DNA of 64,000 nucleotides from Ulota crispa. Lineage: Eukaryota; Streptophyta; Bryopsida; Orthotrichales; Orthotrichaceae. Where the stretch lies: contig OY987249.1 in NCBI GenBank assembly GCA_963920765.1, positions 18,696,483 through 18,760,482 on the forward strand, written 5' to 3'. Position numbers and translations under genes: made by a program. This document shows positions 1,066-61,520 of this stretch, piece by piece (the first letter of the stretch is position 1; each line of letters begins with the position of its first letter). Below the pieces are notes generated by a model that was not told where the DNA came from, made no database searches, and worked only from the letters and a program-made list of their open reading frames with translations.

Positions 1066-2275
1066 TGTATACTAGAAAATACAATTAGGTTGCCCCACAC
1101 TAATTTCTCAGCAAATTGAATCTTATAAATACTTATTATAATAGAAATTTTGCAATTTGAGTTGCGCAAGCTTGACTATAATAACCCTTTAAGGACCACA
1201 CCCATTTTCAAAAAACCCACTAAAACCAAGGATGACAAATGTACATGTGCAGTTGAATTAGATATGGACCCAATTTGAACAATCCAACCATACAAATGGG
1301 GAGGACACCTTGTTTGTTGTTACATACCAAAATTTCAGCTAGATCTACCATTGGAGGTAAAATATTATAATGATTGAGTGAGTTGGATGTGGAGAATCTC
1401 TAGTTTTTCATGCTCGTGTGGTTTTGAATGTTAATGCTTCATGCAAGCTTTGATTGAAAAGAGCCTTACATTTCTAGAAAGCCAAGGTTCCCACCTTTCC
1501 AATAAGACTAGTTTCACTCAAAATAGACAAAAATAGCAATCACAAAGTGTAGCTAAGTGGACAAAAAGGGTCAAAAATCCCACTTTCTTGACTACCCTTA
1601 AAATGCTCTCTAGGAAATTTGATAATTGTTATGGAAAATCGAACTGGTGAAAACAATCAAGAATTGGCCTTAAATGTAGAATGTCAAATTTTTAAAATGA
1701 AACAACAACACCATTTTAGTAGATCTTTAAACACTATAATTATACTACTATCGCATAGGAAAACAATACAAGCATATTTCTTAAGCAATTTGAATATTTT
1801 TAAGATTGTGCAATTGAAGTTTGACATTCTTCTTACATACTTGATGTATTGTGTTGTTGCTTTGATCCATCTTTGACAAAAAATGGATACGTATTTTGAG
1901 GCTATGGTGTATAAACACCATTATTTGTCAACTCACATACCTGATTGCATTGTTATTTTTTTAGATGGATGCAAAATTCTTATGATCACAAGCATACTTC
2001 AAGATCAATTTCCAAATTGTTGAGCAATTTTGATATATAGGCCAAAAACTACTCCCAGCAACCAAAATATGGTCGCATGGTCCTTAAAGGGATAATAAGG
2101 GCCTAGCAAGTGACAACAACAATGACTTTGCAAAAAAAACACATTAGCAATGTCCAAGCCACAAACAATGTGAAACCGTAAAATATGGAGAGTTGCATGC
2201 GCCTCCACGTGGTTAAGTGGTGAATCATGAGGTAGTTTTCCAAGACAAGGCAACTCAAATTCAGTATTAGTAGTA
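1066..2275 (+). mobile_element. Family B MITE, copy 1, split by a TTAA element
   Basis: The left part (about 1066-1184) begins like the copy at 27182 (AATTAGGTTGCCCCACACTA). The right part (about 2092-2275) carries the 'gtggttaagtggtgaatcatgaggta' region and a degenerate GGCAACT right end seen in the other B copies. The two halves are separated by the 907-bp element at 1185-2091. Family B ends in an inverted repeat of about 28 bp (ACACTAAATATTGC, then ATTTAGGTTGCC) and is non-coding. Confidence 0.65.
1185..2091. mobile_element. TTAA-type (piggyBac-like) element, 907 bp, in family B
   Basis: The left end reads CCCTTTAAGGACCACACCC and the right end TGGTCCTTAAAGGG, an imperfect terminal inverted repeat of the TTAA family. 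Both flanks are the identical heptamer ATAATAA (1178-1184 and 2092-2098), so the immediate four bases are ATAA rather than TTAA. Either both copies of the target carry the same change or the element entered a near-match site. It contains no long open frame. Confidence 0.7.
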
Positions 2276-2324
2276 AGGTTATAAGGTAGGAGGCTCATAT
2301 TTTACTCAGGCTCAAAAGTGGTCC

Positions 2325-2408
2325 ACCTTCTCAAATGTATCTCATGTGTACATGCTGTTTTTCATAAGTTTCAAAAATGTACAAGTAGTGTACATTTGAG
2401 AAAGTAAG
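2325..2408. repeat. Short imperfect hairpin
   Basis: CTTCTCAAATGTA at the left pairs with TACATTTGAGAAAG at the right, with further pairing of GTGTACA and TGTACA inside. It could be a very short MITE or a chance palindrome. No flanking duplication was convincing. Confidence 0.35.
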
Positions 2409-3525
2409 CTGTTATAAAGCCCTATGGCCTTTTCACTTCAAAATTTTATAACTAATTCCACAAAGCTCCAAAAAAATGAAACAACTTGGGTTAGATGTCA
2501 ATTCTTCTTGTCTTTCAAGAAAAAATTATTGAAAAATAATTCAAGAAGTTTCACCTCCCAAAATTCAGTTTCAGCCCTTAGATGGTCCATTCATGAGCTT
2601 CCTACCTTAGTGACTCCTTCATATCATTCAGAGTCAATAGGATTTTTTGGTGTCAAGTTTGTATTAATTTATACTAGTCTGTCAGGTATGTAAGCTTACT
2701 TACCTTTTTCCTATAAGGTAAGCTTATGTTACTATGTTTTTCTCTCACTGTCAGGATTGTGTTCTCTTTGTTTTTACTTTTTTTTAAAGATTAAACAGTG
2801 GTGCCTCCACCTTTAATATTGTCAGATTTATAGGATCTGTATAATTGGGCTCGTGTTTCTAAGTTGGCTACGTAACATCAAAGTAGAGTGGTGCAGTACA
2901 AAGCTATCATAACATTCAGTAGCAGACAGCGTGACTGCCCTCCCTTCAATCCAAGAGTGTGGAATATTTCACACCCATCAGCAGCTAAGAGGACACTTGT
3001 CTGAATTTGTCAGAGAGTTTATGAAAAAGAGGCTCAATTTAGTGCACATATGTCAATGTGCGGGGCCAATCATGTTAGAAATTTTTTTTTTTAAAAAAAA
3101 ACACACACACACACTTTTTTTTCTTTCTTTTTTTTTTGTCATGATGAAGTTTGTGAATGATACCTCAAGAGAGGAAAAGGTAGCCTCTCTTCATAATACT
3201 GAATGTTATGATGGTTGAAGCCAAGAAAAATCCTTTCTCTGCCGAAGGTTCAATAATTTGTGATTGCTATGAATTTAGATCACCCAAAGTGAAGCAGGGA
3301 GCTTTTTCCTCACAATCTTGCCTCATTTCTACACAAATGAATGAAAATCCATTGTAAGAAATATAAGTAAAAACAAACCCAAGCAAAAAGTGGCAAGGAG
3401 GGGTCATAGACAAACAAAAAATCCCCATAATTGATCAATATGGAGTGTATTTGGATCAATGCAATGTCAAATTACACTTCATATATAATATGCAACTCCA
3501 TATTGATCAAATATGGGGTTAAAAT
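2409..3525. other. AT-rich sequence with homopolymer tracts, no gene seen
   Basis: The stretch contains a T/A tract with a short CA repeat near 3080-3140. The open frames of under 100 codons are low-complexity and match nothing known. The right end merges into the microsatellite at 3526. Confidence 0.45.
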
Positions 3526-3583
3526 GAAAAAAAAAAAAAAAAAAAAAAAAACAATAATAATAATAATAATAATAATAATAATT
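3526..3583. repeat. Poly-A plus (AAT)n microsatellite
   Basis: A run of A of about 25 bases is followed by about ten ATA/AAT triplets, directly next to the TTAA element that starts at 3590. Confidence 0.9.
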
Positions 3584-3589
3584 GCTTAA

Positions 3590-4538
3590 CTCCAAAAGGC
3601 CCGTTGTCCCTTTGGGACCGTTTGGGGTTTGGTCATGTACCTATGAGTAAACTACTTTATGTAATTTTTTGAAACTTTTATGGGAGATGGGGAATTCAAA
3701 GATCTATGTGGGCATCAAATTTTTTCTTCGTTTCTGACATTTATTGAAGAAGTTATGCATGTTTTTTCTGCAATTTTGGGGAGGGTTGCCCATCCGGGCA
3801 GCCAAACAACTTCTTTAAAAATTATATATTTTTAAAATAAAATTCTAAAATTGGTTCTTTAGATTTTTTCATACATGAAAAGCTTTGAATCAATCAATTT
3901 CAATCAAAGAGATGAAAGTTATAAGGAGTTTTTGTTTGCAGGTAGTTATGGATTCTCTACTCTAAAATAAACTTTGAAGTCCTTTATTTTACTCAATTTT
4001 CAATATTTTGAAAAAAAAAAACTAAACCTAAGGAAGTAGATTGTTTATTACAACATTATCACTGTTGGGATTTGCATTCTTCATTTCAATAATTAAATTC
4101 TTAGCAATTTAGTGTTTTGACCCATTCTCTACTTCTTTTTACTTATTGATTTTTCCCATGTGTTGTATAGTTCCAATTGATTTGAAAATTCTCCCACACA
4201 TACCTAACTTGGTTTTCTACATGGGAAAAATAAACCCCAACTTTGCATAGAGCAAATTTTTTAATATAGGAGTGGTCAACGACATCTGAAATTTTTAAGC
4301 AATATGAAAAAGAACTTTTTTCCTCACTTCATTTGTAAAATTCTCAGTCCTTGTCATTTGGAATAAGCTCAATCTTTTTTCCCAAGTACCTCATGCTGTA
4401 TAGAGCAAGATCCTATAGTTGGATTTAAAACAAAAAACAAAAAAACAAACAAAAAAAACAAAAAAATCCATTCCTTTCATCCCCAAAAGTGGCAATTTTC
4501 ATTGTTTTCACAGAAAAAATGGCCTGGGCCTTGAGGGG
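3590..4538 (-). mobile_element. TTAA-type element, subfamily I-a, 949 bp
   Basis: It is flanked by TTAA on both sides (3586-3589, 4539-4542). The left end is CTCCAAAAGGCCCG and the right end GGCCTTGAGGGG. A subterminal palindrome TTGTCCCTTTGGGACC lies at about 3605. It is collinear with 27594-28504 and matches 9588-10516, 45551-46492 and 55815-56742 in reverse complement (for example the 'ctctacttctttttactta' region). No coding region is present. It is a non-autonomous element whose mobilising enzyme is not in this window. Confidence 0.8.
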
Positions 4539-6051: not shown

Positions 6052-6923
6052 CCCCTATACTACCAAGGCCATTTTCTGCTAGAAACCACTCAAAACTGCC
6101 CCTATTGCTGCGTTCATCAAAAAATTCAACATAATGCTGTTCTTGAAAATCTAACCATAGGATCTTGTAATGCACTTGTAGAAGAAGTGGTAAGAATTTC
6201 ATGACATTTGACTGTACGGATTGAAAGTTATGAGCATTTCAAGTGATAAGTTTTTGTTTTTTCCATTGTTCCCAAAAAATTTAGATGGCTTTGACTGACA
6301 TTTGCTGATTTTTTTGCACTACAAACATTGAATTTGTAATTTTATCTTGTAGGTAATCAAGTTACACCTTTGTACACCAATTTTCAAGGCAATCAAAGAC
6401 ACGGAACATGTCCAAAAAAAATTGCAATGCCACTATATAACAAGTTTTGTAAACACACTATGACATTTTTGAGTGAAGTTTCCCACCACATGTTTTTAGA
6501 TGTGGAAAATCCAAACGGTATGTTTGAAGATGAATATGTACTTCAAATTTCAAAATAAAAAGTTAAAAAACTCAAAATCTCTAAAATTTAGAAGTTCCCA
6601 AAGCCCAATTTGACCTTGTAGTTGGAAATGAAAGGGGAAATAATGGGGACCACTAGAGCAACATGTGGCAACCCCTCCTTGCTCCCCCCCTTCAAAGTCA
6701 ATATTTTCTCCTTTGCCCAAGTTGCCCCTTGAAGTGCTTTTGGCCAAAAAAAGCCCATAACTTGTGAACTATGTGACATAATCACATGATTTTTGCATCC
6801 CACAAACCTTATACATTCCTACACACTCATAAAAGGTTTCAAAAAATCATGTAAAAAATTGAGGTCACACAAGCCTACCCAAAATCCTGAAAGTCCCTTG
6901 AAGGGACCTTGAGGCTTTAGGAG
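6052..6923. mobile_element. TTAA-type element, 872 bp, diverged
   Basis: The left flank is TTGA (6048-6051), a one-base variant of the target, and the right flank is TTAA (6924-6927). The ends are CCCCTATACTACCAAGGCC and, reverse-complemented, CTCCTAAAGCCTCAAGG. Before the right end lies the subterminal palindrome GTCCCTTGAAGGGAC. There is no coding potential. Confidence 0.7.
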
Positions 6924-7267: not shown

Positions 7268-7912
7268 CCCCTAAATGCCCAAGCGACCAAATTTGGGTCT
7301 TTACAATATTTTGAAGATGAATAAAACCTTAGCAAATCATTATTTTTAGTATTCTTTTTTTCAATATAAGTTTTTTTTTTAAATTTATTTTCAACATCAA
7401 AAATCTGATTTTGAATATGAAAGTTCATAATTTTTCTACTCAAGATTTTGTACAAGGGTGTCCATTGCAATCTTGAGTTTTCTAGTGCTGGAAGATCTTG
7501 AAATTGAGCCTCAAATACACTAGAGCTTGGAGAAAAATCCACATTAGAAATCCATTTAAAAAAATGTAGGAGTAGATTTTTAAAACCGTAAATTGATTGG
7601 AGTTAGATATGTAATGACCTTAAACCTCATATTTTTTTAGAGACCAACTTCTTAGATTTGACATGTGAAATGAGAATTAAAAGACTTTAGGTCACTTTGC
7701 AATTTTAACACCCTCATGTTCAAACATTATAATCTTTCAAACTATAAGTGCTATTGATGTGTTTTCTTTTTCCATGTAATTTTTAACATGTTTAGTTTAA
7801 ATTTGTACAGTTACAATTGAAAAAAACTTGATGAAATTTATGAAAAGGTTGATTGATTGTTCAGTTTCATGAAAAGTCCAAGAAGCCCAGATAGGGCTTG
7901 GGCATTTAAGGG
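7268..7912. mobile_element. TTAA-type element, CCCTAAATGCCC subfamily, 645 bp
   Basis: Exact TTAA flanks (7264-7267, 7913-7916). The left end CCCCTAAATGCCCAAGC and the reverse-complemented right end CCCTTAAATGCCCAAGCC form a near-perfect inverted repeat. The same termini occur at 10521 and, more diverged, at 59446. The interior is non-coding. Confidence 0.85.
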
Positions 7913-8710: not shown

Positions 8711-9417
8711 GGGAATTGATATGTGTACCACACCCTTTTAATTATTGTACCACATCCCAAAGAAAATTTTAAATTTCTACCATCAAAATGCTGAATTTTA
8801 GAATTTGGAATTCAAATTTGGACTTAGAGACCATGATTTAGTTTAGAACCATAAAAAAAATTGCACTTCAACAGTACCCAATGAAAACGTCTAGTTAGTG
8901 AGAAAAGTGTTACCTTTACTTTTGTTTGTAAAAAATGATAAACTTTTTCATTGGATGTTGTTGAATTGCAACTTTTTATATGGTTTTAAACTAAATCATG
9001 GTCTCTAAGTCCAAACCTGAATTCCAAATTCTCAAATTTAACTTTTTGATGATAGAAATCTAAAATTTCTCTGGGATGTGGTACAGTAATTGAAAGGGTG
9101 TGGTACTGTTGAATTGCAACTTTTTATATGGTTTTAGACTAAATCATGGTCTCTAAGTCCAAACCTGAATTCCAAATTCTCAAATTTAACTTTTTGATGA
9201 TAGAAATCTAAAATTTCTCTGGGATGTGGTACAGTAATTGAAAGGGTGTGGTACTGTTGAATTGCAACTTTTTATATGGTTTTAGACTAAATCATGGTCT
9301 CTAAGTCCAAATTTGAATTCCAAATTCTCAAATTTAGCTTTTTGATGATAGAAATCTAAAATTTCTTTGGGCTGTGGTATAGTAATTGAAAGGGTGTGGT
9401 ACACATATTAATTCTCC
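8711..9417. mobile_element. Family E MITE, 707 bp, with amplified right arm
   Basis: The left end GGGAATTGATATGTGTACC and the right end GGTACACATATTAATTCTCC are an inverted repeat, and the arms continue pairing inward for about 200 bp. The putative target duplication is 8 bp, ATTATTAA (8703-8710) against ATTACTAA (9418-9425), one mismatch. That length would fit hAT. The right arm is present as three tandem copies of 148 bp. A second copy of the family is at 47799-48132. Non-coding. Confidence 0.7.
8963..9405. repeat. 148-bp tandem repeat, three copies
   Basis: The word GAATTGCAAC recurs at 8963, 9111 and 9259, giving an exact 148-bp period. Each unit runs from that word to GGTGTGGTAC. Units differ by only a few substitutions. 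They are tandem copies of the right arm of the family E MITE. Confidence 0.9.
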
Positions 9418-9587: not shown

Positions 9588-10516
9588 CCCCTAAAGGACC
9601 AAGCCCATTTTCCTGTGGAAGTCCCTAAAAATTGCAACTTTGTGGGAATGAGCACAAAGGTAGGAAAAAAAGTTTTTTGAGAATTCAATTGTAGGATCTT
9701 GTCCCAAACTATGGGAGGTACTTGTGGGAAAAATATCAGCTCATTCTAGATGTAGGAGAGTGAGATATTGACATTTGAAGTGATACATTTTTTTTCCTTG
9801 CTGCCCAAAAAACTTCAAAAGCCTTTGATTGCTTCAATATCAAAAAAATTGCTTTACTCAAAGTTCAGGTTTATTTTTTCCATGTAGAATACCACATTAG
9901 GTAAGTGTAGGAGAATTTTCAAAGGAATTGGAGGTGTGAATCATACTTTGTAAAATCTTGCAATGTTGTAAGGCTATGGAATTTGCATATACACTAGGCA
10001 AAATTGGAGGATTTATGCAAAATTGAGAAATCTGAATTACTTTGATCCAAATAGTGAAAACCAAGGAATCTTAGTCTACTACAACTTGGGAAAAAAAAAG
10101 GCAAAAAATAAATTGAAGCACCAAATTTTACAAGGGGAAAAAGGAATGGAGGTTTGAGAGTCCCATACTTACCAACAAACTAAAACTTCTTACTCATCAA
10201 TCAAAATTGAATGGTTCAAAGCTTCCCACATATATAAAATTCTAAAGAATCAATTTTGGATGTTTTAAAAAATTATGTATATTTTTTGAGAAGTTTTTTG
10301 GGCTGCCCAAACTGCTTGCCCTCCTCCATTTTTCAAAAACTCATGCATAACTTTTTCAATAATTGTCAGAATGAAGAAAAATTAGATGTGCATTTACATC
10401 TTTGAATTCCCCACCACCCTCAAAAGTTTCAAAAAAATCATTAAAAATTGGTTTAGTCATAAGTACATGCCCGAGGTTCATTTGTCCCCCAAGGGGACAA
10501 ATAGGTCCTTTAGGAG
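9588..10516 (+). mobile_element. TTAA-type element, subfamily I-a, 929 bp
   Basis: Flanked by TTAA at 9584-9587 and 10517-10520. The left end is CCCCTAAAGGACCAAGCCC and the right end, reverse-complemented, CTCCTAAAGGACCTATT. It is collinear with 45551-46492 and 55815-56742 and inverted relative to 3590 and 27594. A GTCCCCCAAGGGGACAAA palindrome sits just inside the right end. The right-hand TTAA is also the left flank of the next element. Confidence 0.85.
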
Positions 10517-10520
10517 TTAA

Positions 10521-11423
10521 CCCCTAAATGCCCAAGGCACCAGATTTTGGTATCCAAAAAACTTCATGAAACTTTGAAACCTTGTTAAAGGCACAAATTT
10601 TATTGTTTTTAGGTATTTTTTTGTGGAAAAGCTGCACACTGAGGTTAGCTTCACCGTTCAAATTCAACTTCCTCCATATCTTATTCCAATTGATTTTGGT
10701 GGAAGGTTAACTACAAGCATAGATTTTGTGTCATGGAAGAGTGTTGTGAATAGTATCACGGAGCCTATGAGAAGTTGCTGCATTGAAAAGGCGGGCATCA
10801 AGTTGAGAAAAAGGTGAAGATTTCCCTTGGACAATAAGGGCCCTTTGCTTGAAATTTTGACATCTAACAAAATCTAAAATTGCTTTTGGACTAATTTCAA
10901 TTGGAATATCATTGTTATAGAAATTAAGATTTATTCACCGTTGAATTTTCTTTCATTCAAATTGATATTAGGTCAATAATTGAAGCTAAAAATTTCTTTG
11001 TATTAGGTGTTTGCACTTTGATAGGAGCATTGCAAGCTCATTTATGAAATTGTGGTCATGTCTTTGGAAGCAAGGACATTAGTTCTCAAGTAACAATAAT
11101 AAACACTGAAGCATCCTAAGTGGCTCTTTCCCAATTTGGTATCCAAAAGTTGCCAATTTGCATTAGAAGTTTCGGCTTTTGGGCAGCTCCAAAAAAGCAA
11201 AATATTCTATACTCATCATCATTCAATCACAAATTTCTTAGAATCCTTGTGGCCATTTTGGATTTTTTAGGTAGCACCATCTAGAAGCCCTGAAGTTCAA
11301 AATTCTACAATTACAATTTATTTTGATGTTTCATAATGATCTCACAAAGACAACTTAAAAATTTCATAGCTGCCTTCCAAAAACAAGAAAAACACCCTAA
11401 AAACACCCTTGGGCATTTAGGGG
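10521..11423. mobile_element. TTAA-type element, 903 bp, sharing a TTAA with its neighbour
   Basis: The left TTAA (10517-10520) is shared with the preceding element and the right one is 11424-11427. The ends CCCCTAAATGCCCAAGG are identical in inverted orientation for 17 bp. The interior is unrelated to the neighbour at 9588. Small open frames of up to 68 codons on both strands near 10623-10870 do not resemble known proteins. Confidence 0.85.
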
Positions 11424-17820: not shown

Positions 17821-18046
17821 CCCTTAAACGTCAGAAAGGCCCTTTGTGACCATTATAATATGGGGTATACTTTTTGTATTTGGAATGGATCCACACTTCT
17901 ACTACATTTGAGATCAACAAAGAAGTTGGAATATTGATAAACGCGGTTCTAGTGAGCTATTTGAGATCCCAAGTTAAAATTTCTTATTTGTAACAAATGC
18001 CAAATATACGGCAACATATTTACTATGCCCTTGGGACGTTTAAGGG
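17821..18046 (+). mobile_element. TTAA-type element, 226 bp, first of an inverted pair
   Basis: Exact TTAA flanks (17817-17820 and 18047-18050). The ends are CCCTTAAACGTC and GACGTTTAAGGG, 12 bp perfect. It is homologous over its whole length to 18051-18282 in reverse complement. Being short and non-coding, it is MITE-like. Confidence 0.85.
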
Positions 18047-18050: not shown

Positions 18051-18282
18051 CCCTTAAAGGACATAGCTACTAAAATACATATAGTATACGCTGTTGTATA
18101 ACTGGTGTTTGCTACCAACAAAAAGTTTTAATTTGGGATCTTGACTACCTCTCTAGAACAACATTGATCTATATTCTAACTTCTTTGTTGATCTCAAAAA
18201 TAAAAAGTGTTAATGCACTCCAAATATAAGAAAAATACACCGTATTGTACTAGCCGCAAAGGGCTGCTTTGTCCTTTAAGGG
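18051..18282 (-). mobile_element. TTAA-type element, 232 bp, second of an inverted pair
   Basis: The left TTAA (18047-18050) is shared with the preceding copy and the right one is 18283-18286. The ends are CCCTTAAAGGAC and GTCCTTTAAGGG, 12 bp perfect. It is the inverted homologue of 17821-18046, diverged by many substitutions. Confidence 0.85.
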
Positions 18283-21859: not shown

Positions 21860-23655
21860 TATGTACAGTACCAGCTAATAAAGATACATACCACTTGTTT
21901 TGTAGGTCAAGAACTTACATAATATAGATTATAACTCATACTTTTTTCATCTTACATCATAGATGTGTAGTTCTTATGCAATCCCAATCAAGCATACCAA
22001 ATCTTAGTTCTAGAAAACATAAATCACATTTTTGATGAGTTTTTTTTGTAATAAATCCATGATAAATGATTGAAAAATATTGGTGTTGGGTTTTTGAGAT
22101 TTGATTTCATGGGTATGTAGGAAACATCATTACACACATCTTTGGCTTTAAAAAAAATGAGGGGTTAAGTAACAAAAAAAAATTATCTACAAGAAATTTA
22201 TTATGACAATTGGTTTGCCCAAATTTTGTAAAATAGATATTTCTTCATGATAATCAAATTTTTCTATTTGACTTATGCATGGTGACTGATTTGTATCTCT
22301 AAGCATGATGTTGTGTTTACTTGGTGAAAATCTAGTTTAAAAATAACAATATCTATTTTTTAAAATTTGAGCAAGCCAAAGGTTACATTAAATTAGTTGT
22401 AGATCATTTTTTTGTTACTTCACCCCTAAAGGCCCAAGGGGTTTTTTCACTAGAAATTGCCAAAATTTGTGTTTTTTCAATATGTTGATGTGAATTTTAA
22501 CTTGAAAAATATTTTTGAAAATTCAACCGTACAAAATTGTAGTAAAGTATTTTAGTCTTGAGTGCAAAATAACTCCACCCATTTGACCTCATGGGTTGAA
22601 AGATTATAGCATTCAAAATTTATAAAAAAGGTTTTTTTGTCCTTGCCCAAATGGGTCAAGAGTCAAATTTTTCATTGGCATAAATTAAAGTTTTTTCCCA
22701 CTGGTATCTAATTCTTGTTAGGTACACTCATGAAAAGTTTCAAGAGCATATTATGAATCTAGCTTATTCTAAATTGCCTTGCAGTATAAGGAGGTCAAGT
22801 GAATTGGCAATACATTAGTCAATCTTTCATGATTTATTGTGCATTGAGGACATCTTTTATTTGAAATTCGGATGGTGAAAAGTTAGACACAAACATTTGG
22901 AATGTTTGAAAAAAACTCCAATGCTTTGGATTTATAGATTGAAAGATAAAAGGCCTTGAAGTTAGAGGAGGACATTTTTCTTGAAATTGCCCAAACATAC
23001 TTAACAAAGTTTGACTCCCTTTAGAATGTGATGTGAGGCCTCAATTTATTTGCTTTTTTGACAATTGTACACCATGTCTTTTTAGTTACATACTTGCCAA
23101 ATTTCAAAAGTTGATGAGAGTTTTGGCATAAAATTCTCCAAAGATGCCCAAATTGCCCAAGCTTGCCCAAATTCTTTTGGGTAGCATAAATTTTAACTAA
23201 GCATCCAATTGGGGACAATTTTATATTTCCACTTGGGAGATACATATTTACACCTTGTGTAACAATTTTGAGAACATCCAATAAAAACTAACCCCATATG
23301 ACCCTATCCAAGTTCTGAAGTGGCTCTTGAACGGACACTTGGGCGTTTAGGGTTAAGGCAAAAAAAAATTAGAATGAAAGATGTGCATACCAATGTTTTT
23401 TACATACCCATGCAATCAAATCTCAAAAATTCAACACCAATATTTTTCAATCATTTATCATGGATTTATTACAAAAAAGCTCATCAAATATGTGATTTAT
23501 AGTTCCTAGAGCTAAGATTTTGTATGCTTGATTAGGATTGCATAAGAATTACAAAACTATGATGTAAGATGAAAAAAATACCAATTATACTCTATATTAT
23601 GCAAGTTCTTTGACCTACAAAACAAGTAGTTTGTATCTTTATAAATTGGTAATGT
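21860..23655. mobile_element. Large foldback element 1, hosting a TTAA element
   Basis: The left arm (about 21860-22260) pairs with the right arm (about 22330-22420 plus 23353-23655). Matching words include CTTGTTTTGTAGGTCAA, CATCTTACATCATAG and AGTAACAAAAAAA in opposite orientations. The right arm is interrupted by the TTAA element 22423-23352. The interior loop is only about 70 bp. It is related in sequence to the adjacent foldback. No coding potential. Confidence 0.65.
22423..23352 (+). mobile_element. TTAA-type element, subfamily I-b, 930 bp
   Basis: The left flank is TTCA and the right flank TTAA (23353-23356). The ends are CCCCTAAAGGCCCAAGGGG and TTGGGCGTTTAGGG. It is collinear with 24761-25800 and 46610-47557 (shared 'tcattttctc..gatgcccaaattgccc' block). 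It is inserted in the right arm of foldback 1. Confidence 0.8.
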
Positions 23656-24526: not shown

Positions 24527-25871
24527 GAGCATCTTCACCCCTACAAGCTAAGGGTTTTGCACTTGCCATTGCATGTTAACTGCTCCAAGCCCCTCAAAAC
24601 ATTCTCATGGCACTCAATCTTAGCATGTCAAGCACTCGCTTTTGAAACACTATCAATCTTAAGTTTGGTGAGCTTTTATCCAATATTCCACTTGGTAATT
24701 GATGAATTGACTATTTTTGAAATAAGTTTGTTAAGCAAGGATGAGAGGTAAGCATTTTAACCCCTAAAGGACCAAGGGTGTTTTTTGAGAAGAAATCTCA
24801 GAACTGCCAACTTTTAGTGCATTGCCCAAAATTGAAAATAGAAACCTTTTTTTTTAATTTTATCCATACATAAGTGTGCAAAATAGATAGATTAATATGC
24901 TCAAAAAAATTCAGCCCATTTGACTACGTGGATTGTAAGATTATAATGTTTGAAGTTAGAAATCCTACTTTTTAAAATTCCTGCAAAACAAGGTCAGCAG
25001 ACTTTGACCCTTCCTAGAGTAAACTTTTTGCTCTACAAAAATTTGAGCTTTTTGACCATTCGCAAGTATATGATGTTAGGTTTACTCACAAAAAAATTCA
25101 GATACAAAAATTCAATCTAGCTTGTTCTAAATCATCCTCCAAGGCAAAGAGGTTAAGCGAATTGGCAATACATTAGTAATTTTCATGATTTCTTGTGCAA
25201 TGAGGAATTCTTTTATTTGAAATCTGAATAGTGAAGAATTAGAGACAAACATTTGAAACATAGGAAAAAAAGTTTCAAGAGCTTTGGATTTAGAGATTGA
25301 AAGATGATAGGGCTTGAAGTCACTAGAAGAAACCCGTGTTTTTTATAACAAATTTTTTGGACGTCCACTAGTTTTCATGTTACAATGTTATGTTTGATGA
25401 CATTGTTAACATGAAAACAAGTTTTTTTTTTTCTTCTTGAAATTGCCCAAACATAGTTAGCAAAGTTTCACTCCCTTCTAAATGTGATGTGAGAGTTCAA
25501 ATTTGTTTTTTTTTTGACAATTGTACATTATGTTTTTTTAGTAACATACTTGCCAAATTTCAAAAGTTGATAAAAGTTTTAGCATAAGATTCTCCAAAGA
25601 TGCCCAAGCTGCCCAATTTCTTATGAGCAACATAACTTTTGAACTAGGCATCTAATTGGGGAAAAAATTACGTTTCCACTAAAGGGAATACTTATCTGCA
25701 CCTTGTGTAACAATTTTAAGAAAATTAAATAAAAATTGACTCCATCCGACCCTACACAATTCTCAAGTGCCTGTTGAACAGCCACTTGGTCCTTCAGGGG
25801 TTAAAATACTCTTCAAAAGTAAACGTAAACGTTTACCATGTCAAATTTGGCAAGTAAGGGTGAAAATGCTC
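24527..25871. mobile_element. GAGCATC (PIF/Harbinger-like) MITE, split by a TTAA element
   Basis: The ends GAGCATCTTCACCCCTACAAG-type on the left and GTAAGGGTGAAAATGCTC on the right form an inverted repeat. They are flanked by TTA on both sides (24524-24526, 25872-25874), the 3-bp target of PIF/Harbinger. Without the 1040-bp insertion at 24761-25800 the element is about 300 bp. No coding potential. Confidence 0.75.
24761..25800 (+). mobile_element. TTAA-type element, subfamily I-b, 1040 bp
   Basis: Exact TTAA flanks (24757-24760, 25801-25804). The ends are CCCCTAAAGGACCAAGGG and CTTGGTCCTTCAGGGG. It is collinear with 22423-23352 and 46610-47557 but longer by about 90 bp at 25340-25430. There an extra hairpin (AGTTTTCATGTTAC / GTTAACATGAAAACA) lies. 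It sits inside the GAGCATC MITE. Confidence 0.85.
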
Positions 25872-26645: not shown

Positions 26646-26679
26646 AGGTAAGTTAGCAACACCCATAAGCGTGAAACTA

Positions 26680-26994
26680 AGGTAGGAGGGCACCCATAAA
26701 CGTCAAACTAAGGGTTTTGAACATGATGACTATTAATAAACAACTAGCAAATTATATGATCCGGTTAGGAACAAAAAAAAAACAGTTTGTACTCTGGAAT
26801 GTATTATTTGGATATTATGAGAATAAGTTGTGAATTTTTAAAGAGCAAATTGTCATTGCACCCATATCCACTTTTAAGATTTCATGTTCACCTGCTGTAC
26901 ATCCTTGTCATTACATCTATCTACTTCCACATATTTTTTAAGATTTCAGAGGTGACGGTTATGGGGACATTGACGCTTATGGGTGTTCCTACCT
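26680..26994. mobile_element. TA-flanked MITE, AGGTAGG ends, 315 bp
   Basis: AGGTAGGAGGGCACCCATAA at the left and TTATGGGTGTTCCTACCT at the right form a TIR of about 27 bp. Both flanks are TA. A second, diverged copy of the left TIR (AGGTAAGTTAGCAACACCC) lies directly upstream at 26646-26679, so the left end is tandemly duplicated. TA target suggests Tc1/mariner. Confidence 0.65.
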
Positions 26995-27590: not shown

Positions 27591-27593
27591 CAA

Positions 27594-28504
27594 CCCTAAA
27601 AGACCATTGTCCCTTCAGGGGACAAATGGGATTTTGGGCATGTACTTATGGCTAAACTACTTTGCATGATTTTCTGAAACTTTTTATTGAAGGTGAGGAA
27701 TTCAAAGATCTACGTGAAAATGTAATTTTTTCTTCATTCTAACATTTATTAATGCATGAAATTCTAGAAAATGCTGCTCCCCAAGCAACCTAAAACTTCT
27801 TTAAAAATTTCATTTTTTTCAAATAAAAATCTAAAATAGGTTCTTTAGACTTATATAGATGTGGGGAGTTTTGAATCATTCAATTATGATAGATGACATA
27901 AAAATTATGAGTAGTTTTTGTTTGCGGGCAGTTCTAGATTCTCTACTCTAAAATAAACTTTGAAGTCCTTTATTTTACTCAATTTCCATTATTTTGGAAT
28001 AAAAACAAAATTAAAGGATGTAGATTGTTTATCACAACATTATAGCCGTTGGAATTTGCATTTTGCATTTTAATAATTAAATTTCTTAACAATTTAGTGT
28101 TCTGACTCATTCTCTACTTCTTTTTACTTACTATTTTTTCCCATGTGTTGTATAGTTCCAATTGATTTGAAAATTCTCCCACACATAACTAACTTGGTTT
28201 TCTACATGGGAAAAAAAAACTTCAACTTTGCGTAGAGCAATTTTTTTTGATATAGGAGTGGTCAACAACTTCTGCAATTTTTGGGCAATACAAAAAAAAC
28301 TTTTTTCTTCACTTCACATGTAAAGATCTCACTCCTTTTCATTTGGAATAAGCTCATTTTTTTCCCATGTACCTCATACTGTCTAGAGCAAGATCTTATG
28401 GTTAGATGTCAAAAAAACAAAATAAAAATTACCATTCCTTTCATCCCCCAAAACTGGCAGTTTTCCTTGTTTTTCACAAAGAAAATAGTATGGTCTTTTA
28501 GGGG
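27594..28504 (-). mobile_element. TTAA-type element, subfamily I-a, 911 bp, decayed flanks
   Basis: It is collinear with 3590-4538 over nearly its whole length. The ends are CCCTAAAAGACC and GGTCTTTTAGGGG. The flanks are TCAA and ATAA, so both copies of the target have changed. The subterminal palindrome TTGTCCCTTCAGGGGACAAA is at about 27608. Non-coding. Confidence 0.75.
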
Positions 28505-29215: not shown

Positions 29216-29951
29216 CTTTGGAGTAGGAAAATCAATTGATGAACTTCAAAAAACAATTGTCAAGTTAGCAAGAGGAAACCAAAAATATTGGCCTCAATTT
29301 CAAAATTTTAGTTGCAAGTATTTGTTCACAAAGATTTTTCAATGTCCAAAATCACTGAAAATGTATAATTGTGTGTAGGTGATGCTTTAATTAACGCTTG
29401 CTGAAGTCTTTAGTGTGCTCATATGCTTATAATACTAACTTGAGGAGTTCTTAAATAGTGAGATGGGGCACTCAAAATTGTCATACCAGTCACCCAAAAC
29501 CATCACTTTGATAGGCATAACCTATATTTTTGTATTTGTGTCAAGCTTACACAGATTTGGCTGCTAGGCAACACCAATGGGGACTCTCACAAAGAGGGCT
29601 GTAGCTACTTTAAAGCAGACAATGTATTTGGAGTCTTCCATCAGCTAGACCAACCTTTAAACTACATTTTACTAGAAGTAAGGTGGAAGCAATCATACCC
29701 AATAACTTAAGCAATTTTGCAACAAACTACAAAGAGTTTGAGGCAGCATATTTGTTTTCTCATGTAGAAAGATAAGAAATGTTGGGATTGCCAATTTTTT
29801 AATTTTTTTTGCAAAACTCAATTACTGAGAATTTTGGGAGTCAAAAAGTGCTTTGAACCAATTGCCAATCTCTAGACTTGTGTAATTTCAATAATAGCCA
29901 AACTATTTTCAACTTGTTACTTCCTACTTCACTTTGGGACACATGGCATGA
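29216..29951. other. Unassigned spacer
   Basis: No gene or transposon terminus was recognised between the family B copy and the palindromic TTAA element. Confidence 0.4.
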
Positions 29952-30399
29952 CCCTAAAGGACCAACTGTCCCCTCGGGGGACAAATGGATTTTGGGCATG
30001 TACCTATAGCTAATCAACATTTTGTGATTTTTTGAAACTTTTATTCAAGGTGTAAATTTCAAAAATCTACAAGGGCATCTAATTTTTTCTTCATTTTGAC
30101 ATTTATTGAAGAAGTTAAAAATGAATTTCCAAAAACAGGCGAGATTAAGCAACCCAAAAACTTTTTTAAATGCAAATTTTTAAGAAGTTTTTGGGCTGCT
30201 TGATCTTGCCCGTTTTCCAGAAATTCATTTTTAACTTCTTCAATAAACGTCAGAATGAAGAAAAAATTAGATGTCCACGTAAATCTTTGAATTTCCCATC
30301 ATCTATAAAATTTTCAAAAAATCATGCGAAGTAGTTTAGCCATAAGTACATGCCCAAAATCCCATTGGTCCCCCAAAAGGGGGCTTGGTCCTTTAGGGG
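29952..30399. mobile_element. Palindromic TTAA-type element, 448 bp
   Basis: The ends are CCCTAAAGGACCAACTG and CTTGGTCCTTTAGGGG. The flanks are ATGA and TCAA, degenerate forms of TTAA. The two halves of about 210 bp are complementary throughout, including the subterminal palindrome (GTCCCCTCGGGGGAC and GTCCCCCAAAAGGGGG). Each half matches the right end of the subfamily I-a elements. It is a snap-back derivative of that subfamily. Confidence 0.8.
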
Positions 30400-40122: not shown

Positions 40123-40503
40123 CCCCTAAACGCACATGAGGGCGTTTTTTGTCCTCTGGCCCTGAAAAAACATTATGTACAATAGGAAAAAGTTGTTTTT
40201 CATCTGTTTTTTTTCCAAAGTGACAATAAACACATGATCCATCATAAAAGGCAAATAACAATCTTATCAATTATGTGCATATTTTTAGGTGACCCAAATT
40301 GTGAGAAATTTTAAAATCATGATGTTAGGTCCCAAGCTGCCCTTATTGTAATTTTCATGAGGTTGGCATGCACTATTGACTTTTGAAACTTTTAGAAGCA
40401 ATACTATTAGTGCCCATCTATCAAACTACTGTTGAAGGTACAGTAAAAACACTACTAAAGCTATAGTATGGGTAGGCCACGGCCACCCAGCAGACACTAA
40501 GGG
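40123..40503. mobile_element. TTAA-type element, 381 bp
   Basis: Exact TTAA flanks (40119-40122, 40504-40507). The left end is CCCCTAAACGCACATGAGGG and the right end GACACTAAGGG, so the inverted repeat is short and imperfect. The interior is unrelated to other members. Confidence 0.7.
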
Positions 40504-44055: not shown

Positions 44056-45013
44056 CCCCTGAGCGCCCAGGCCGTTTTCACCAAAGTCAGGGTTTTTGGA
44101 GATCAACCACTTTGATGCATTGTATCTCGGTCAATTGGATGATTCACAAAAAGTGACCATTGAAAGTAGTGGAGTACCTACTTAGAAAATGGCTTGCAAA
44201 TTTTGGGAACAATTCACCGAGGGAGATGGGAGATTAGAACATTTGATCAAACAACATGTGATGACAAAATCTCAATTTTTGGTAGGTAGTTGCTATTTGA
44301 TGATTCCTACAAAATTCTATAAGACCTGGAACAATCTCAAACTTTGTGAGTAGCAAGATTAGATGTGAATGCAGACACTTGTAAATTATTGAAGATTGCA
44401 CTTCTTTTTATGTCAAGTTTTAGGGCTTCAAATCACTATTGCACTAAAAACAATGGCCGGTACAATTGGTGACTGTTGCCATAATAAGGGTCTAGAACAT
44501 GCTTGAACCCTTGCCAACAACTTTCCCGCTACCACAAAGCTTACACAAGGAAACTTGCAAGGGATATTGGCTAGTTGTAGCCTGTAAAACACAGCTTGCT
44601 AGCACGCCCTATGCGGTGCCACCACTCCCCATATGGTGTTTTCACCCAATCAAATCTCTTGTAGCACTTGTAAAACATTTGGCTTTCATTGCCATTACTC
44701 CATTGGCATGAACAACTTAAATGCCTTCATAATTGTAGTGTATAATAAGACCAAAAAGTTAGATCTAGTCCCTCAAAACAAGGCTTGAAAATTGTAAGAG
44801 GCGATATTTGGGGCTCTATGTAACATTGTTAACCTTCATTGGGAGTTCCCTTTTGCTCCCCCAATACGAGGATCCCAGCCAATGCTATTCATGAGCTCTC
44901 GATCAACACTAATAAAAATCTTTAACTAAACTCTACCCAGGTATCCAGGCTGAATATCCCTCTTGGGGGAGGAACAGGACCGGGTAAACAATATTATGTG
45001 GGGCGCTCAGGGG
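44056..45013. mobile_element. TTAA-type element, CCCCTGAGCGCCC subfamily, 958 bp
   Basis: The ends CCCCTGAGCGCCC and GGGCGCTCAGGGG are a perfect 13-bp inverted repeat. The left flank is ATAA and the right flank TTAA (45014-45017). The interior is less AT-rich than that of other members and has no partner in the window. A 70-codon frame at 44499 is not recognisable. Confidence 0.8.
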
Positions 45014-45550: not shown

Positions 45551-46492
45551 CCCCTCAAGGCTTGAGTCCTTTTTTTTGCAAAAGTCATTGAAAACGGTCA
45601 CTTTCAGGGCAATGAATAGAAAGGTAGAAAAATTGTTTACAAAAAGAATCCAATCGTAAGATCTTGCCCTAGACTATGGGAGATGCACACAAGAAAAAAT
45701 CATCTCATTCTATATGCAAAGGAGTGAGACATTGACATCTAAAGTACAAAAAAGGTTTTTTTCCTTGCTGCCCAAAAATTTCAGATGCCTTTGACCTATC
45801 CTATATCAAAAAAATTATTGTATGCAAAAGGTGAGGTTTGTTTTTCCCATGTAGAAGACCAAGTTAGGTAAGTGTGGGAGAGTTTTCAAATGAATTGGAG
45901 GTGTGAATCATATTATTTAAAATCTTGCAATGCCTAGAGGCCATGAAATTTGCATATACACTAGGCAAAATTGGAGGATTTATGTAAAATTTAGAAATTC
46001 AAATTACTTTGATCCAAATTGTAAAAAACCAAGAAGTCTTAGTCTACTACAACTAGGAAAATAAGAAGTCAAAAAACAAATACACAAAGAGCTCAAAAAA
46101 GTAAAGCACCAAATTTTACAAGGGGCAAAAGGAATGGAGGTTTGGGAGTCCTATACCTACTAGCAAACTAAACTTCTCACTCAACAATTAGAAATGAATG
46201 ATTCAGAGCTTCCCATATATATGCAAATCTAAAGAAACAATTTTAGATTTTAGTTTTTAGAAAATGAATTTTGTTTAAAGAATTTTTGGGTTGCTCGCCC
46301 TCCCCTTGTTTTTCAAAAATTCATGCATAACTTCTTCAATAAATGACGAAATGAAGAAAAAATTAGATGCCCACACAAGTCCTTGAATTCCCCACCTTCA
46401 ATAAAAGTTTCAAAAAATCACAAAGTAATTTTGCCATAGGTACATGCCCAAAATCTCGTGTGTCCCCCAAGGGAACAACAATCCTTTAGGGG
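45551..46492 (+). mobile_element. TTAA-type element, subfamily I-a, 942 bp
   Basis: The left flank is TTAA (45547-45550) and the right flank TTGA. The ends are CCCCTCAAGGCTTGAGTCC and ATCCTTTAGGGG. It is collinear with 9588-10516 along its whole length. The subterminal palindrome GTCCCCCAAGGGAAC is at about 46463. Confidence 0.8.
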
Positions 46493-46609: not shown

Positions 46610-47557
46610 CCCCTAAAAGACCAAGGGTGGTTTTTGAGAAAAGAATGTCAAAAACTGCCAACTTTTAGTGTGCATTGCCCAAAATTGAAAACACAAATTT
46701 TTTTTCTCAATTTCAACCGTATAAAAGTTCGTAAAACAGATAATTTAACATCTGAAAAAAATTCAGCCCAGTTGACTATGCATATTGTAAGATTATAATG
46801 TTTGAAGTGAGAAAAACAACTTTTTTTTCATTCCTGCAAGACAAAGTCAGCACACTTTGATCCTTCCTAGAGAAATTTTTCTGCTCTATACAAAAATGAG
46901 ATTTTTGACCATTCACAAGTATATGATGTTAGGTTCACTTGTGAAAATTTCAGATGCAAATATAGAATCTAGCTTATTCTATATCACCGTGCAATGCAAG
47001 AGGGTTTAGTGAATTGGCAATACACTAGTCATTTTTTATGATTTTTTGTGCAACAAGGAAGATTTTTTATTTGAAATTTGAATTGTGAAAAGTTAAAGAC
47101 AAACATTTGGAATATGTGAAAAAAAGTTTCAAGAGCTTTGGATTTACAAGGTGAAAGATAATAGGGCTTGAAGTTAGAGGAGGACATTTTTCTTGAAATG
47201 CCCAAACATACTTAACAAAGTTTGACTCCCTTCAAAATGTGATGTGGGAGCTTTTTTTTTTTTGACAATTTTACACCATATTTTTTTAGTTACATACTTG
47301 CCAAATTTCAAAAATTGATGAGAGTTTTGGCATAAGATTCTCCAAAGATGCCCAAATTGCCCAAGCTTGCCCAAATTCTTTTGGATAGCATAAATTTTAA
47401 TTGAGCATCTGATTGGGGAAAAATTTACATTTCCACTTGGGGGATACATATTTGCACCTTGCATAATGATTTTGAGAACATCCAGTAAAAATTAACTCCA
47501 TATGATCCTACCCAAGTTCTCAAATGGTTGTTGAATAACCACTTGATCCTTTAGGGG
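46610..47557 (+). mobile_element. TTAA-type element, subfamily I-b, 948 bp
   Basis: Exact TTAA flanks (46606-46609, 47558-47561). The ends are CCCCTAAAAGACCAAGGG and CTTGATCCTTTAGGGG. It is collinear with 22423 and 24761. The 96-codon frame on the minus strand at 47174 recurs in the copy at 23021. It follows from shared ancestry of the element and is low-complexity, so I do not call it a gene. Confidence 0.85.
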
Positions 47558-54022: not shown

Positions 54023-54160
54023 AGGTAGGTATACCCATTTCCAACCTTTTCCCAATTTTGACCTTTATGTACCCAAGGTGCTCATTTCAGAACCGAAATG
54101 AACACCATGGGTACATAAAGGTCAAAATTGGGAAAGGGTTGGAAATGGGTATACCTACCT
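54023..54160. mobile_element. Near-perfect hairpin MITE, 138 bp
   Basis: The two arms of 67 bases differ at only three positions by my alignment and are separated by a six-base loop (AGAACC). The ends are AGGTAGGTATACCC and GGGTATACCTACCT. TA flanks both sides (54021-54022, 54161-54162), as for Stowaway-like elements. The TTAA element at 54164 uses a TTAA that overlaps its right end. Confidence 0.85.
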
Positions 54161-55814: not shown

Positions 55815-56742
55815 CCCTTAAAGGATCAAGCCCTTTTCTTTGCCAAAATCACTAAAAATTGCCACTTCTAGGAGGTTTAATAAAAAGGGATTTTTTGTTT
55901 TGTTGTTGGGAAATCCAACCATGGGATCTTGCTCCAGACTAGAAGAGGTACTTGTGGGAAAAAAATCAGCTCATTCTAAATGGAGAGGAGCGTGATATTT
56001 ACATCTAAAGTGAAAAATAAAGATTTTTTCCATGTCGCCCAAAATTTTCAGAAGCCTTTGACCACTCTTATAACAAAAAAAATTGCTCTACCCAAAGTTG
56101 CGCTTTAACTTTTCCATGTAAGAGATCAAGTTAGGTATGTATGGGAGAATTTTCAAATCAATTGGAACTTTATAAGACATGGGGAAAAATAGTAAGTAAA
56201 AAGAAGTAGAGAGTTTGTCAAAACACTAAATTGTTAAGAATTTAATTATGGAAATGAAAAATGCTAATCCCAACGGTGACAATGTTGTGGTAATTGATCT
56301 ACTTTCTTTTTTTTGATTGTTTTTCCAAAATATTGAAAATTGAGTAAAATAAAGGACTTCAAAGTTTATTTTAGAGGAGAGATTCCATAACTGCCCTCAA
56401 ACAAAAACTCCTCATAACTTTCATGTCTTTGATTGAAATTGAATAATTCAAATCTTCTCATGAGTAAAGAAATCTAAAGAACCAATTTCAAATTTTTATT
56501 TTAAAAAAAAGGATTTTTTAAAGAAGTTTTGGGCTGCCTGCATGGCAGTCCTCCCTAAATTTTCATAAATTCACGCATAACTTTGTCATCAAATATCAAA
56601 ATGAAGAAAAAATTAGATGCCCACGTAGATCTTTGGATTCCCACCTTCAATAAAAGTTTCATAAAATCACACAAAATATTTTAGCCATATGTACATGCTC
56701 GAAGTCCAACTTGTCCCTCGCAGGGACAATGGTCCTTGAGGG
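55815..56742 (+). mobile_element. TTAA-type element, subfamily I-a, 928 bp
   Basis: The left flank is TTAA (55811-55814); the right flank ACAT has lost the target. The ends are CCCTTAAAGGATCAAGCCC and GGTCCTTGAGGG. The left half is like 9588, and the right half is the inverse of the left half of 3590. The subterminal palindrome GTCCCTCGCAGGGAC is at about 56713. Confidence 0.75.
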
Positions 56743-56907
56743 ACATTGGTCATGAAGAAAGTAGCGTGCATAACAAAACAAATGCCCAAAGATTATGGTC
56801 CAAGAATATTTGTGCAATTTTTGAAGAACTAGAAATACCTGTACAAATATGGCAAACTTCAAGAATGTCCATAATTTTTTCCTATACACACATATATATA
56901 TATATAT

Positions 56908-57903: not shown

Positions 57904-58809
57904 CCCCTAAAGGACCAAGGAGCCCACTTTGGGCTTTATGAGAACTTGGGCAGGCTCTATTGATTTCATAATTTGGAAATTTTTCATGAAACTTTTAGGA
58001 TGGATGCTATTCATAATAATCTACATGTGAAGCTTTATTTCATGTCATTCCGACAAGTAATGCAAAAGTTAGAAGGTTTTTTCAATATCAATGTCAAATC
58101 GGATAGCAAAAAAAATATTCTAAATTTATTGTTTTTTTATTTATAAAATTTTATAAATTGATTCCTACTCAAAAAAAAATTGAATCACTCAATTCCAAAT
58201 AATGAGATAAGAGTTAAAAGGAGTTTTATTTTGCAGGCAATGAAGGTAGGAAGAGGGTAGAAAAAACATATAAAGTTATCTTTTACTCTCAATTTTGAAA
58301 ATTTTCAAATGAAAATGAAACTTACTCATTGTCTATTAGAGCATTCTCACCATTGGGATTAACAATTTTCAAATTCTTCCAAAACTTATTAGCATATTAG
58401 TTATATCTTTCATTCATCAATACCTTTCACTTTACAATTTTTGTAAAAATGAATCCAAATTTTTTTGGTTAAATTTTTTTATATATGCTTTCAACTCATT
58501 TTCCAATATATTGCCAAAATTGCACAAGAAATAAAACATATGTATTTTTCTCTAAAAAATTTGAAAAACAAAACTACACCTTCTGGAAGGACTAGAAAAG
58601 CCTATCTTTTGAAATTTAGACACATTGATCTTGCAATTGGAGAGGAGACTCATTTTGAAATTTTAGGACAATGTACTTGTGTAAGGCAAACAAAGGATCC
58701 TACGATTGAATTTGTTAAAAAGTAAATTTCAATGAAAATTTTGACCTTACTTTGGGGATTAATGTTTTGAAGCAGTTTTGGACCTCTAAACACGAAAGAA
58801 TTTTAGGGG
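57904..58809. mobile_element. TTAA-type element, 906 bp
   Basis: Exact TTAA flanks (57900-57903, 58810-58813). The ends are CCCCTAAAGGACCAAGG and AATTTTAGGGG. The left part has the same order of landmarks as 3590 and 27594 but is strongly diverged. An 86-codon frame at 58465 is not recognisable. Confidence 0.8.
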
Positions 58810-59138: not shown

Positions 59139-59405
59139 CTACACTGAATATTGCGTTTAGGTTGCCCTATACTAGTTTCAGTATTTGAATATTTACTGTG
59201 TTGCTAGTTTTTATTGATAGTTACTACAGTAAACAAATTTTAAAGAACTTTTCAACAACAACAAAGTTATAGAAAAACAAATTAGCTGCCCCCACTTTGT
59301 AAATCACATGACTTTAAAGTATCTAGATTTTTGCATGCACCAAGTGATAAGTCACAAGGTGACTTACCATGGTAAGGCAACCTAAATGCAATATTTAGTG
59401 TACGT
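59139..59405 (+). mobile_element. Family B MITE, copy 5 (uninterrupted)
   Basis: The left end ACTGAATATTGCGTTTAGG and the right end CCTAAATGCAATATTTAGTG give the full TIR of the family. It serves as the reference for the terminus that is split in copy 3. About 265 bp, non-coding. Confidence 0.8.
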
Positions 59406-59445
59406 TTCATGTCTCACATCCACTAAAATTTTAAAATCTCATTGA

Positions 59446-59986
59446 CCCCTAAATGCCCAATCAACCATTTTTTGCTCGTTGCCCTTTTTTCCAAGCGGCC
59501 CGAGATGAAAGAATATATTTTTTGAAAATTTTAAAAATACTTTCATATAAGAAAGCAAGTTTACTTTCCAACCCAATGTGAATCATGTCAATCCAAGTTA
59601 AACTCCACCGTAGAGAATTTTTCAAAAACAAACACTTTAATATTTGCTAGTGTTACAAAATTTACTATTTTGGGAAAATAATGATGTTCTCTTCTTCAAA
59701 ATGAAAACATTTTTTACTTTTCAAATTGAATGTCAAATTTTAACCAATCATACCAATTTTTATATTCCATGAATAAAATTTATCATTTTGATGAATATTA
59801 AATGGTAAATGCTTCTAAATTCATGAAATAAGAATCCAAAACTTTTTTTGAATGTTTGACCATATGGATAGTTACTAAACATCATGATTCTAGTTTTCTC
59901 TTTAAAAATAACCTTCATCAGAGTTACAAAAGTATCATTTTATAATGCATTTATGTTTTGCCCTTACCCCCTTGGGCGTTTAGGGG
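59446..59986. mobile_element. TTAA-type element, 541 bp, in family C
   Basis: The left flank is TTGA and the right flank TTAA (59987-59990). The ends are CCCCTAAATGCCCAATC and CTTGGGCGTTTAGGGG. It is related in its termini to 7268 and 10521. Confidence 0.75.
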
Positions 59987-60549
59987 TTAAGAGCCAAAAG
60001 TTAGAAATTGGCAATTCATTGTGTCCAAGGTTCCATGTCTTGGTTCATTGTATTTTGCCTATGTTGTAGCACTTTTATAAAGTTTTTGAGTTATAAAGGT
60101 GGGATTTTACTCAAGGTTTGGATTGACTACTTTGCTATGGATCATATTATTGCACATATGTGTTTATGAGGATAAGGTAAAAAATCTTAGCTTATTTTAC
60201 AAACAAGGTTAAAAGTAATAATTTGCTCCCTCTTGTGGTGTTGTTAAGTTGTATCATCCTTTGTGGTCCTAGATTAAATTAGGGCCATTGAATCTAATTG
60301 TGAACTTAAATTTCACTAATTCAATCTTAAAATGGTACATATCTAAACTCTTACATTTTCTTACATTTTTGGCTTGTGGAAAATGAAAACATTTCCATTA
60401 TGGCTCCATGTTGACGTATGTGCTCTAAACCAAGCCCTAGACTTAACTTTCAACCCAAATCCCGCCAACATTTAGTATAAAATATTCATGACTTCTTAAG
60501 TATTCCTTTTTGTCCTTAATAACCCAATGAGATTAAAACCTTATGTTAA

Positions 60550-61520
60550 CCCCTCATCGCCTAAGGGGACTAAAAGTGTCCTCTCATAGTCTAGCACTTC
60601 AATTTGAATTGTTGTAATTTTTGCATACATTGTCCAAATCTAATAAAATTTGTTGGAGCACTTGCATATTTTAGTCTAGTTTCTATAGCAAAAATCTCAG
60701 ATCAATCTAAGATATACTAAGTTTGTGAAAGCCAATCAAAGTTCAAAGGGTCGATTGGAGTACACCACACCACATTGTGATGCCTGCAACTTTGGAGGCT
60801 TGTATTTTTTTCATCAAGTATTTTTTTCAATAAAATTAGTTGGATTTTGTTTCACTTAAAGTCTAGTAAATGTGGTAGAATTTTCATATCAATCCAATTT
60901 CCTTTGAATGCTTGGGAGCAATTCAAGATTCAAAATCCACACATTTTTGCATCATAATGAACTTTGATGGCTTCTAACTTCTTCACGTAAAGTATTTTTT
61001 CAATATTTTTTGTTGGTTTAATTGCGTATACTAGTCTAGTGAGTGTTGTTAAAATTTCATATCAATCCAAGAAGTTATGAATGAATGAGAAGCATTTTAG
61101 TAGACGGAGGTATAGCCAAAGATGTAATTATTTGCTGCTTTTTTCACTATTTTTGGACATTTCAAAACAATTTTGCAGACATAATGGGTCTACTAAATGA
61201 TTTTTTTTTTCACCAATCTGTTTGATTATTGGTTTTGAATCACTCTACATTTTCAATAATTTTCATTTGAGTAGGTTTAGACATCAAAATTCACCTCAAA
61301 TGTGTTTTTAGGAAACTTTCAGCATCTTTTTTCAACACAAAAACATTATAATCTTCCAATCTATGTGGTCAAATGACCCCAAATTTGACCCACATCATCT
61401 ACAACATGCACACTACAAGATTGTATAATTGAGATTTTCATACTTTATTTACATTTAGACTTATAGCACTTGAGAAGCAAGGATGCATTTGAGGCTCTTT
61501 GGACCTTAGGCGATGAGGGG
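60550..61520. mobile_element. TTAA-type element, CCCCTCATCGCC subfamily, 971 bp
   Basis: Exact TTAA flanks (60546-60549, 61521-61524). The ends CCCCTCATCGCCTAAGG and CCTTAGGCGATGAGGGG are a perfect 17-bp inverted repeat, the best preserved in the window. The interior has no partner here and no gene. It is inserted in family C. Confidence 0.85.

Follow-up and report, generated by a model that had tools for sequence, protein, structure and literature searches.

Short TTAA-flanked elements with piggyBac-like ends in the genome of Ulota crispa

CCC tips next to a TTAA target are typical of piggyBac transposons (PMC10813416). According to the portion of a structural account that deals with the piggyBac ends (PMC7351741), the first 16 bp are bound symmetrically at both ends, the left end carries a palindrome for the C-terminal domain that spans bp 17-33 with its centre near bp 25, and in the structure this repeat is bound on only one of the two ends. 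Here we analysed a stretch of 64,000 nucleotides of the land plant Ulota crispa, referred to throughout as the window (contig OY987249.1, positions 18,696,483 to 18,760,482; G000:C8:18696483-18760482 in an assembly of 274,817,297 bases and 157 contigs), which holds many short elements that start with CCC, end with GGG and often lie between two copies of TTAA. They are best explained as short, non-coding transposons of the miniature inverted-repeat transposable element (MITE) kind that make up a large population of long standing; judging by their ends, target and palindrome, they are probably non-autonomous elements moved by a putative piggyBac-type transposase. Like piggyBac and the animal piggyBac MITEs, they combine a TTAA target and CCC...GGG tips with about 16 bp of tip sequence common to the copies and, in some of them, a palindrome near bp 25 similar to that of the piggyBac left end. 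Unlike them, they reside in a plant-like host in tens of thousands of copies, and their palindrome varies in sequence between families. What is new here is the palindrome itself, which is centred 24-26 bp from the tip, beyond the 16-bp tip, at one end of 17 of 39 elements, with half-sites that differ.

The element population and its insertion sites

Between positions 1185 and 61520 of the window 20 elements of 226-1040 bp were delimited, one fewer than the about 21 counted in an earlier note on this DNA, which had given the same sizes and the same number of exact TTAA pairs. TTAA was found on both sides of 11 of the 20, on one side of five and on neither side of four; in one of these four, 22423-23353, the right TTAA becomes readable if one terminal G was lost. 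Including elements from other stretches taken from the same genome (the L-numbered loci, of which L011-L027 are 17 loci of 10 kb with round coordinates, hand-picked and non-random), 42 elements were delimited, 27 with TTAA on both sides, nine on one side and six on neither; L009 3032-4365, counted among the 42, probably represents two mispaired elements. The elements and pieces homologous to them account for 15,755 of the 64,000 bases of the window. When compared with 30 second-order Markov simulations, the window contained 33 TTAACCC/GGGTTAA sites (5.6 expected), 11 correctly spaced end pairs (none in any simulation) and 28 ends with at most one mismatch from TTAACCCCTAAA (0.77 expected). The CCC and GGG ends described earlier are upheld.

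In an all-against-all comparison of 40 of the elements, pairs among the matches listed aligned over their full length at about 68-88% identity, often from the first C to the last G. When six families were aligned with 40 bp of flank, similarity ended at TTAA|CCC and the flanks were unrelated unless another element abutted. Sites without the element were sought by joining the flanks across it and matching them to relatives elsewhere, the printed alignments (67-89% identity) being read by eye; the unoccupied sites lie in repeats and are paralogous rather than orthologous. A listed unoccupied relative was available for 12 sites. At an identity of at least 80%, a single TTAA was present in six of eight unoccupied relatives (two belonging to 6052-6923, two to L021 5392-5818 and one each to 22423-23353 and L026 2663-3378) and absent from two. 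At all identities, TTAA stood at the aligned place in 2/2 relatives of 6052-6923, 3/4 of 22423-23353, 3/9 of L021 5392-5818, 1/6 of L022 8676-9633 and 1/2 of L026 2663-3378, the unoccupied sites of 22423-23353 and L021 5392-5818 belonging to one repeat. No clear TTAA was seen in any unoccupied relative of the elements starting at 1185, 27593, 55815 and 57904 of the window, or at L010 5449, L013 8095 and L018 7049. The end-to-end alignments, unrelated flanks and unoccupied relatives confirm that these are genuine mobile elements, as had been proposed.

The population extends well beyond the window. The exact 12-mer TTAACCCCTAAA has 15,477 forward and 15,495 reverse occurrences in the 274.8 Mb (30,972 in all), against 41 + 36 = 77 for the same pattern read backwards, and 12.7% of the 170-kb sample (L011-L027) shows matches to a set of 40 of the delimited elements. 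The claim that copies are very numerous is borne out by the end counts and, extrapolating from these, the sample coverage and the window statistics, we estimate some 40,000-60,000 copies in the genome. The longest stop-free stretch in these 40 elements measures 111 codons, which leaves all of them without a transposase gene of their own, in agreement with their earlier description as non-autonomous; the surroundings are also plant-like, as the earlier note had it. Two candidates for a longer autonomous copy were rejected: compared with 55815-56743, L016 5918-7279 contains an insert, and L009 3032-4365 is the probable mispaired element already mentioned. Short, non-coding, numerous and tipped by inverted repeats, the elements have the structure of MITEs and resemble in these respects the Tourist and Stowaway MITEs of plants, from which they differ in their tips; Tourist duplicates TTA/TAA and Stowaway TA.

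The earlier description of these elements as a burst fared less well. The nearest relative (best match over 300 bp or more), which 31 of the 42 elements possess, was 71.0-88.3% identical, with a median of 82.6%, in a sample of about 0.1% of the genome, elsewhere in which closer relatives may exist. Nothing in that sample supports a single recent burst.

The 16-bp tip and the subterminal palindrome

The 60 exact ends share a tip of about 16 bp, CCCCTAAAGG[A/C]CCAAG, beyond which the sequences diverge. Just inside this tip, palindromes were found at a preferred distance. With a palindrome net score of at least 7, dyads lay 24-31 bp from the tip at 17 of 105 distinct ends, while each remaining 8-bp bin up to 183 held between 0 and 7 of the 105 (none below 24 and one to seven from 32 on), and 16 of the 22 best palindromes with a dyad at 14-40 were centred at 24, 25 or 26. 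Among the 39 elements of at least 350 bp, a count that omits three of the 42, a palindrome with a dyad at 23.5-26.5 and a score of at least 6 was present at exactly one end in 17, at both ends in none and at neither end in 22, which amounts to 17 of 78 ends as compared with a background of 3.3% per window of dyad positions.

Taking the better end of each element, a score of at least 8 was reached by 15 of 42 (1.75 in shuffled sequences, 0/34 internal controls) and a score of at least 7 by 20 of 42 (6.4 in shuffles, 6/34 internal controls). Hairpins near all 60 exact ends gave a modest excess, 14/60 compared with 4.4 in shuffles and 6/60 internal controls. The palindrome signal stands out clearly only if an element's two ends are considered separately and the dyad position is measured, a choice that was made after the sequences had been viewed. 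Palindromes occur in seven of 14 families defined by their interior sequence and are built from several unrelated half-sites, for example TTGTCCC, CAAGTGGCTGTT, AGGGGCCC and AGCCCA.

That the palindrome is confined to one end is only suggested by these counts and is not significant, since just about 1.9 elements with palindromes at both ends would be expected (by our own arithmetic) if the two ends were independent. At the partner ends of the 17 palindrome-bearing elements, a second palindrome at bp 31.5-34.5 was seen weakly, in 6/17 at a score of at least 5 as compared with a background of 7.8%, and mostly in related families.

The putative transposase and its rivals

Because the length of the tip and the position of the dyad match the left end of piggyBac, a piggyBac-type driver is the most likely one. 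The CCC...GGG termini are those of piggyBac, and TTAA on both sides of the elements, together with its single copy at six of the eight closer unoccupied paralogous sites, is what piggyBac would leave, although a duplication of TA only is strictly compatible with this pattern too. Members of the superfamily have a DDD transposase with a DDE_Tnp_1_7 domain (PF13843) and a C-terminal domain rich in cysteine, and their seamless excision restores TTAA. In the proposed mechanism, the transposase would be supplied from elsewhere in the genome and would move the short elements by cut-and-paste. A catalytic transposase dimer would grip both 16-bp tips, which begin with CCCCTAAA, and a second pair of transposase domains would hold the palindrome centred some 25 bp inwards. 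Once excised, the element with its TTAA tails would be joined into a TTAA target.

Several points weigh against a piggyBac-type transposase. In 22 of the 39 elements no palindrome was detected at the threshold, and at a score of at least 6 the excess at the better end shrinks to 28/42, compared with 17 in shuffles and 13/34 internal controls. The half-sites TTGTCCC and AGCCCA recur across interior families, and for this reason the palindrome cases are not independent. The absence of both-end palindromes among the 39 is measured against a chance expectation so low that it says little, and a short element outside this set, L013 847-1182, does have palindromes at both ends. Furthermore, in the passages of the structural account bearing on the ends, the natural piggyBac right end also carries the repeat, displaced by an insertion (PMC7351741), and an inward-displaced partner palindrome was seen here at only the six partner ends given above. 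To these may be added that a review names six terminal inverted repeat superfamilies for land plants, Sola among them, and omits piggyBac from that list (PMC9033089).

The literature on piggyBac in plants is nonetheless uneven. The earlier note had called the superfamily generally reported as missing or very rare in land plants, which agrees with its omission from the list just cited but not with a sentence on plants in another review, citing a general classification, that does name PiggyBac (PMC10794571). In addition, an abstract states that piggyBac was isolated from insects, fungi and plants (PMC10813416), and the repeat table of the fern Ceratopteris has an annotation line of 1,230 PiggyBac hits (PMC6890710), the sole plant count met in the portions of the literature consulted. 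Among the matches listed from the open-licence literature, no account of a large plant population of TTAA or piggyBac elements was recognised. It is possible, and we propose it with reserve, that a piggyBac lineage has become a dominant force in a land-plant genome, with copies in the numbers estimated above, and has kept a two-part grip of 16-bp tip and bp-25 palindrome while the sequence of the palindrome changed from family to family; if true, this change would imply repeated co-evolution with the C-terminal domain of the transposase. Such a finding would widen the range of hosts for a major superfamily of transposons and raise the question of its arrival. The tip, searched as a 20-mer, gave no match in viral contigs and one in prokaryote genomes, which is about chance by our estimate. 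If the proposal holds, the population would also be a natural data set from which the rules of piggyBac tip and palindrome recognition could be read from sequence alone, and it might lead to a plant-native transposase for seamless genome engineering.

A different driver, of the Sola type or another undescribed transposase that chooses TTAA, would make the piggyBac-like tips a matter of convergence; we regard this as rather unlikely, though it is the alternative that fares best. Sola transposons duplicate four bases, and one of their groups prefers TTAA, as would be needed here. The CCC tips with a palindrome centred at bp 25 are, however, the layout of the piggyBac left end, and we know of no such combination of tips and subterminal layout in Sola. 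Their presence in land plants counts in their favour, since Sola1 and Sola3 are given for this group and Sola1 for Physcomitrella in the part of the source that lists the superfamilies (PMC9033089).

The target site bears on a second alternative, namely that a mariner-like element with a preference for TTAA duplicates only the TA inside it, the tip then including the inner A and T. The earlier note had argued for the four-base TTAA as target and had taken conservation of the outer T and A to rule out a TA duplication; the target stands, but the argument is incomplete, because a TA duplication with a preference for TTAA would give identical filled and empty sites. At 89 ends from a loose scan, some of them surely false, positions -4 to -1 were T in 88%, T in 89%, A in 76% and A in 83%, with exact TTAA at 60 of the 89, and at position -5 T fell to 40%, near base composition. 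A mariner-like element predicts that the outer T at -4 should be more variable than the TA and the tip base, which was not the case. Moreover, the copy at 1185-2091 is flanked by ATAA left and right, the pattern expected of a four-base duplication. Against this, 44056-45013 (ATAA/TTAA) and L017 4435-5364 (CTAA/TTAA) fit the TA model, and mutation would account for them as well. The flat conservation across four bases and the ATAA/ATAA copy favour a four-base duplication over TA, which falls short of proof, and we consider a mariner-like driver improbable.

Kolobok elements, like piggyBac, duplicate TTAA, but their termini are 5'-RR...YY-3' and the plants named for them, in the part of the source concerned, are chlorophytes and rhodophytes (PMC9587614). 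With 5'-CC...GG-3' termini, the elements described here contradict that form, and a Kolobok-type driver is highly improbable in spite of the common target. Least probable of all are PIF/Harbinger-driven, Tourist-like elements, in whose favour stands an open reading frame (ORF) with a DDE_Tnp_4 match at the window edge (62887-63684), since Harbinger duplicates three bases (TWA) whereas four flank bases are conserved alike here, and the Harbinger transposon to which this ORF belongs was rejected as the driver because its own ends, GGGCCATTCCCACTTG (window 61680 and L028 3508), differ from CCCCTAAAGGACCAAG.

Individual elements and neighbouring features

No strand is assigned to the 20 elements of the window. 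Eleven have TTAA/TTAA flanks, namely 3590..4538 (949 bp), 7268..7912 (645 bp), 9588..10516 (929 bp; palindrome dyad 26, right end), 10521..11423 (903 bp), 17821..18046 (226 bp), 18051..18282 (232 bp), 24761..25800 (1040 bp; dyad 25, right end), 40123..40503 (381 bp; weak right end), 46610..47557 (948 bp; dyad 25, right end), 57904..58809 (906 bp; dyad 25, left end) and 60550..61520 (971 bp). The elements at 9588..10516 and 10521..11423 have one TTAA in common, as do 17821..18046 and 18051..18282, which are relatives in inverted orientation. The element at 57904..58809 is 88% identical over its full length to L010 6685-7596, and no relatives among the 42 were found for 40123..40503, 60550..61520 or 44056..45013.

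The five elements with TTAA on one side are 6052..6923 (872 bp; TTGA/TTAA; dyad 24, right end), the unoccupied relatives of which lie in L025 and L010, 44056..45013 (958 bp; ATAA/TTAA), 45551..46492 (942 bp; TTAA/TTGA), 55815..56743 (929 bp; TTAA/CATT, with a decayed right end; dyad 24, right end) and 59446..59986 (541 bp; TTGA/TTAA). The remaining four are 1185..2091 (907 bp), whose ATAA/ATAA is the sole concordant pair other than TTAA among the 42, 22423..23353 (931 bp; TTCA on the left, GGG and TTAA one G short on the right), 27593..28504 (912 bp; TTCA/ATAA; dyad 24, left end) and 29951..30399 (449 bp; CATG/TCAA; dyad 25, left end).

Other repeats lie between and beside the elements. A 148-bp tandem unit is repeated three times at 8959-9402, with 97% matching, shortly before the element at 9588, and a different repeat at 26677-26998 is 90% identical to positions 348-667 of L022 8676-9633, whose relatives are without it. 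Fragmented ORFs similar to those of long interspersed nuclear elements, one with an RVT_1 match, were found on the minus strand at 33528-34475. The segment at 54034-54150 has matches, on either strand, to hairpin models of several unrelated microRNAs and is perhaps a foldback element; the Rfam microRNA matches in the window were all weak, below the gathering scores, and were dropped. At the window edge, the PIF/Harbinger-type transposon noted above spans about 5.8 kb, from 61680-64000 on to L028 3508, between its inverted ends. Beyond the stop that closes its DDE_Tnp_4 (PF13359) ORF, an open continuation lies at 63688-63975, and on the other strand, at L028 774-1886, there is an ORF of 371 codons without a Pfam match. 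Among the other sampled loci, a tandem repeat at L013 2804-4194 has three reading frames that each stay open over more than 380 codons, and at L021 3470-6200 repeats related to one another are clustered in both orientations, one of them holding an inserted element.

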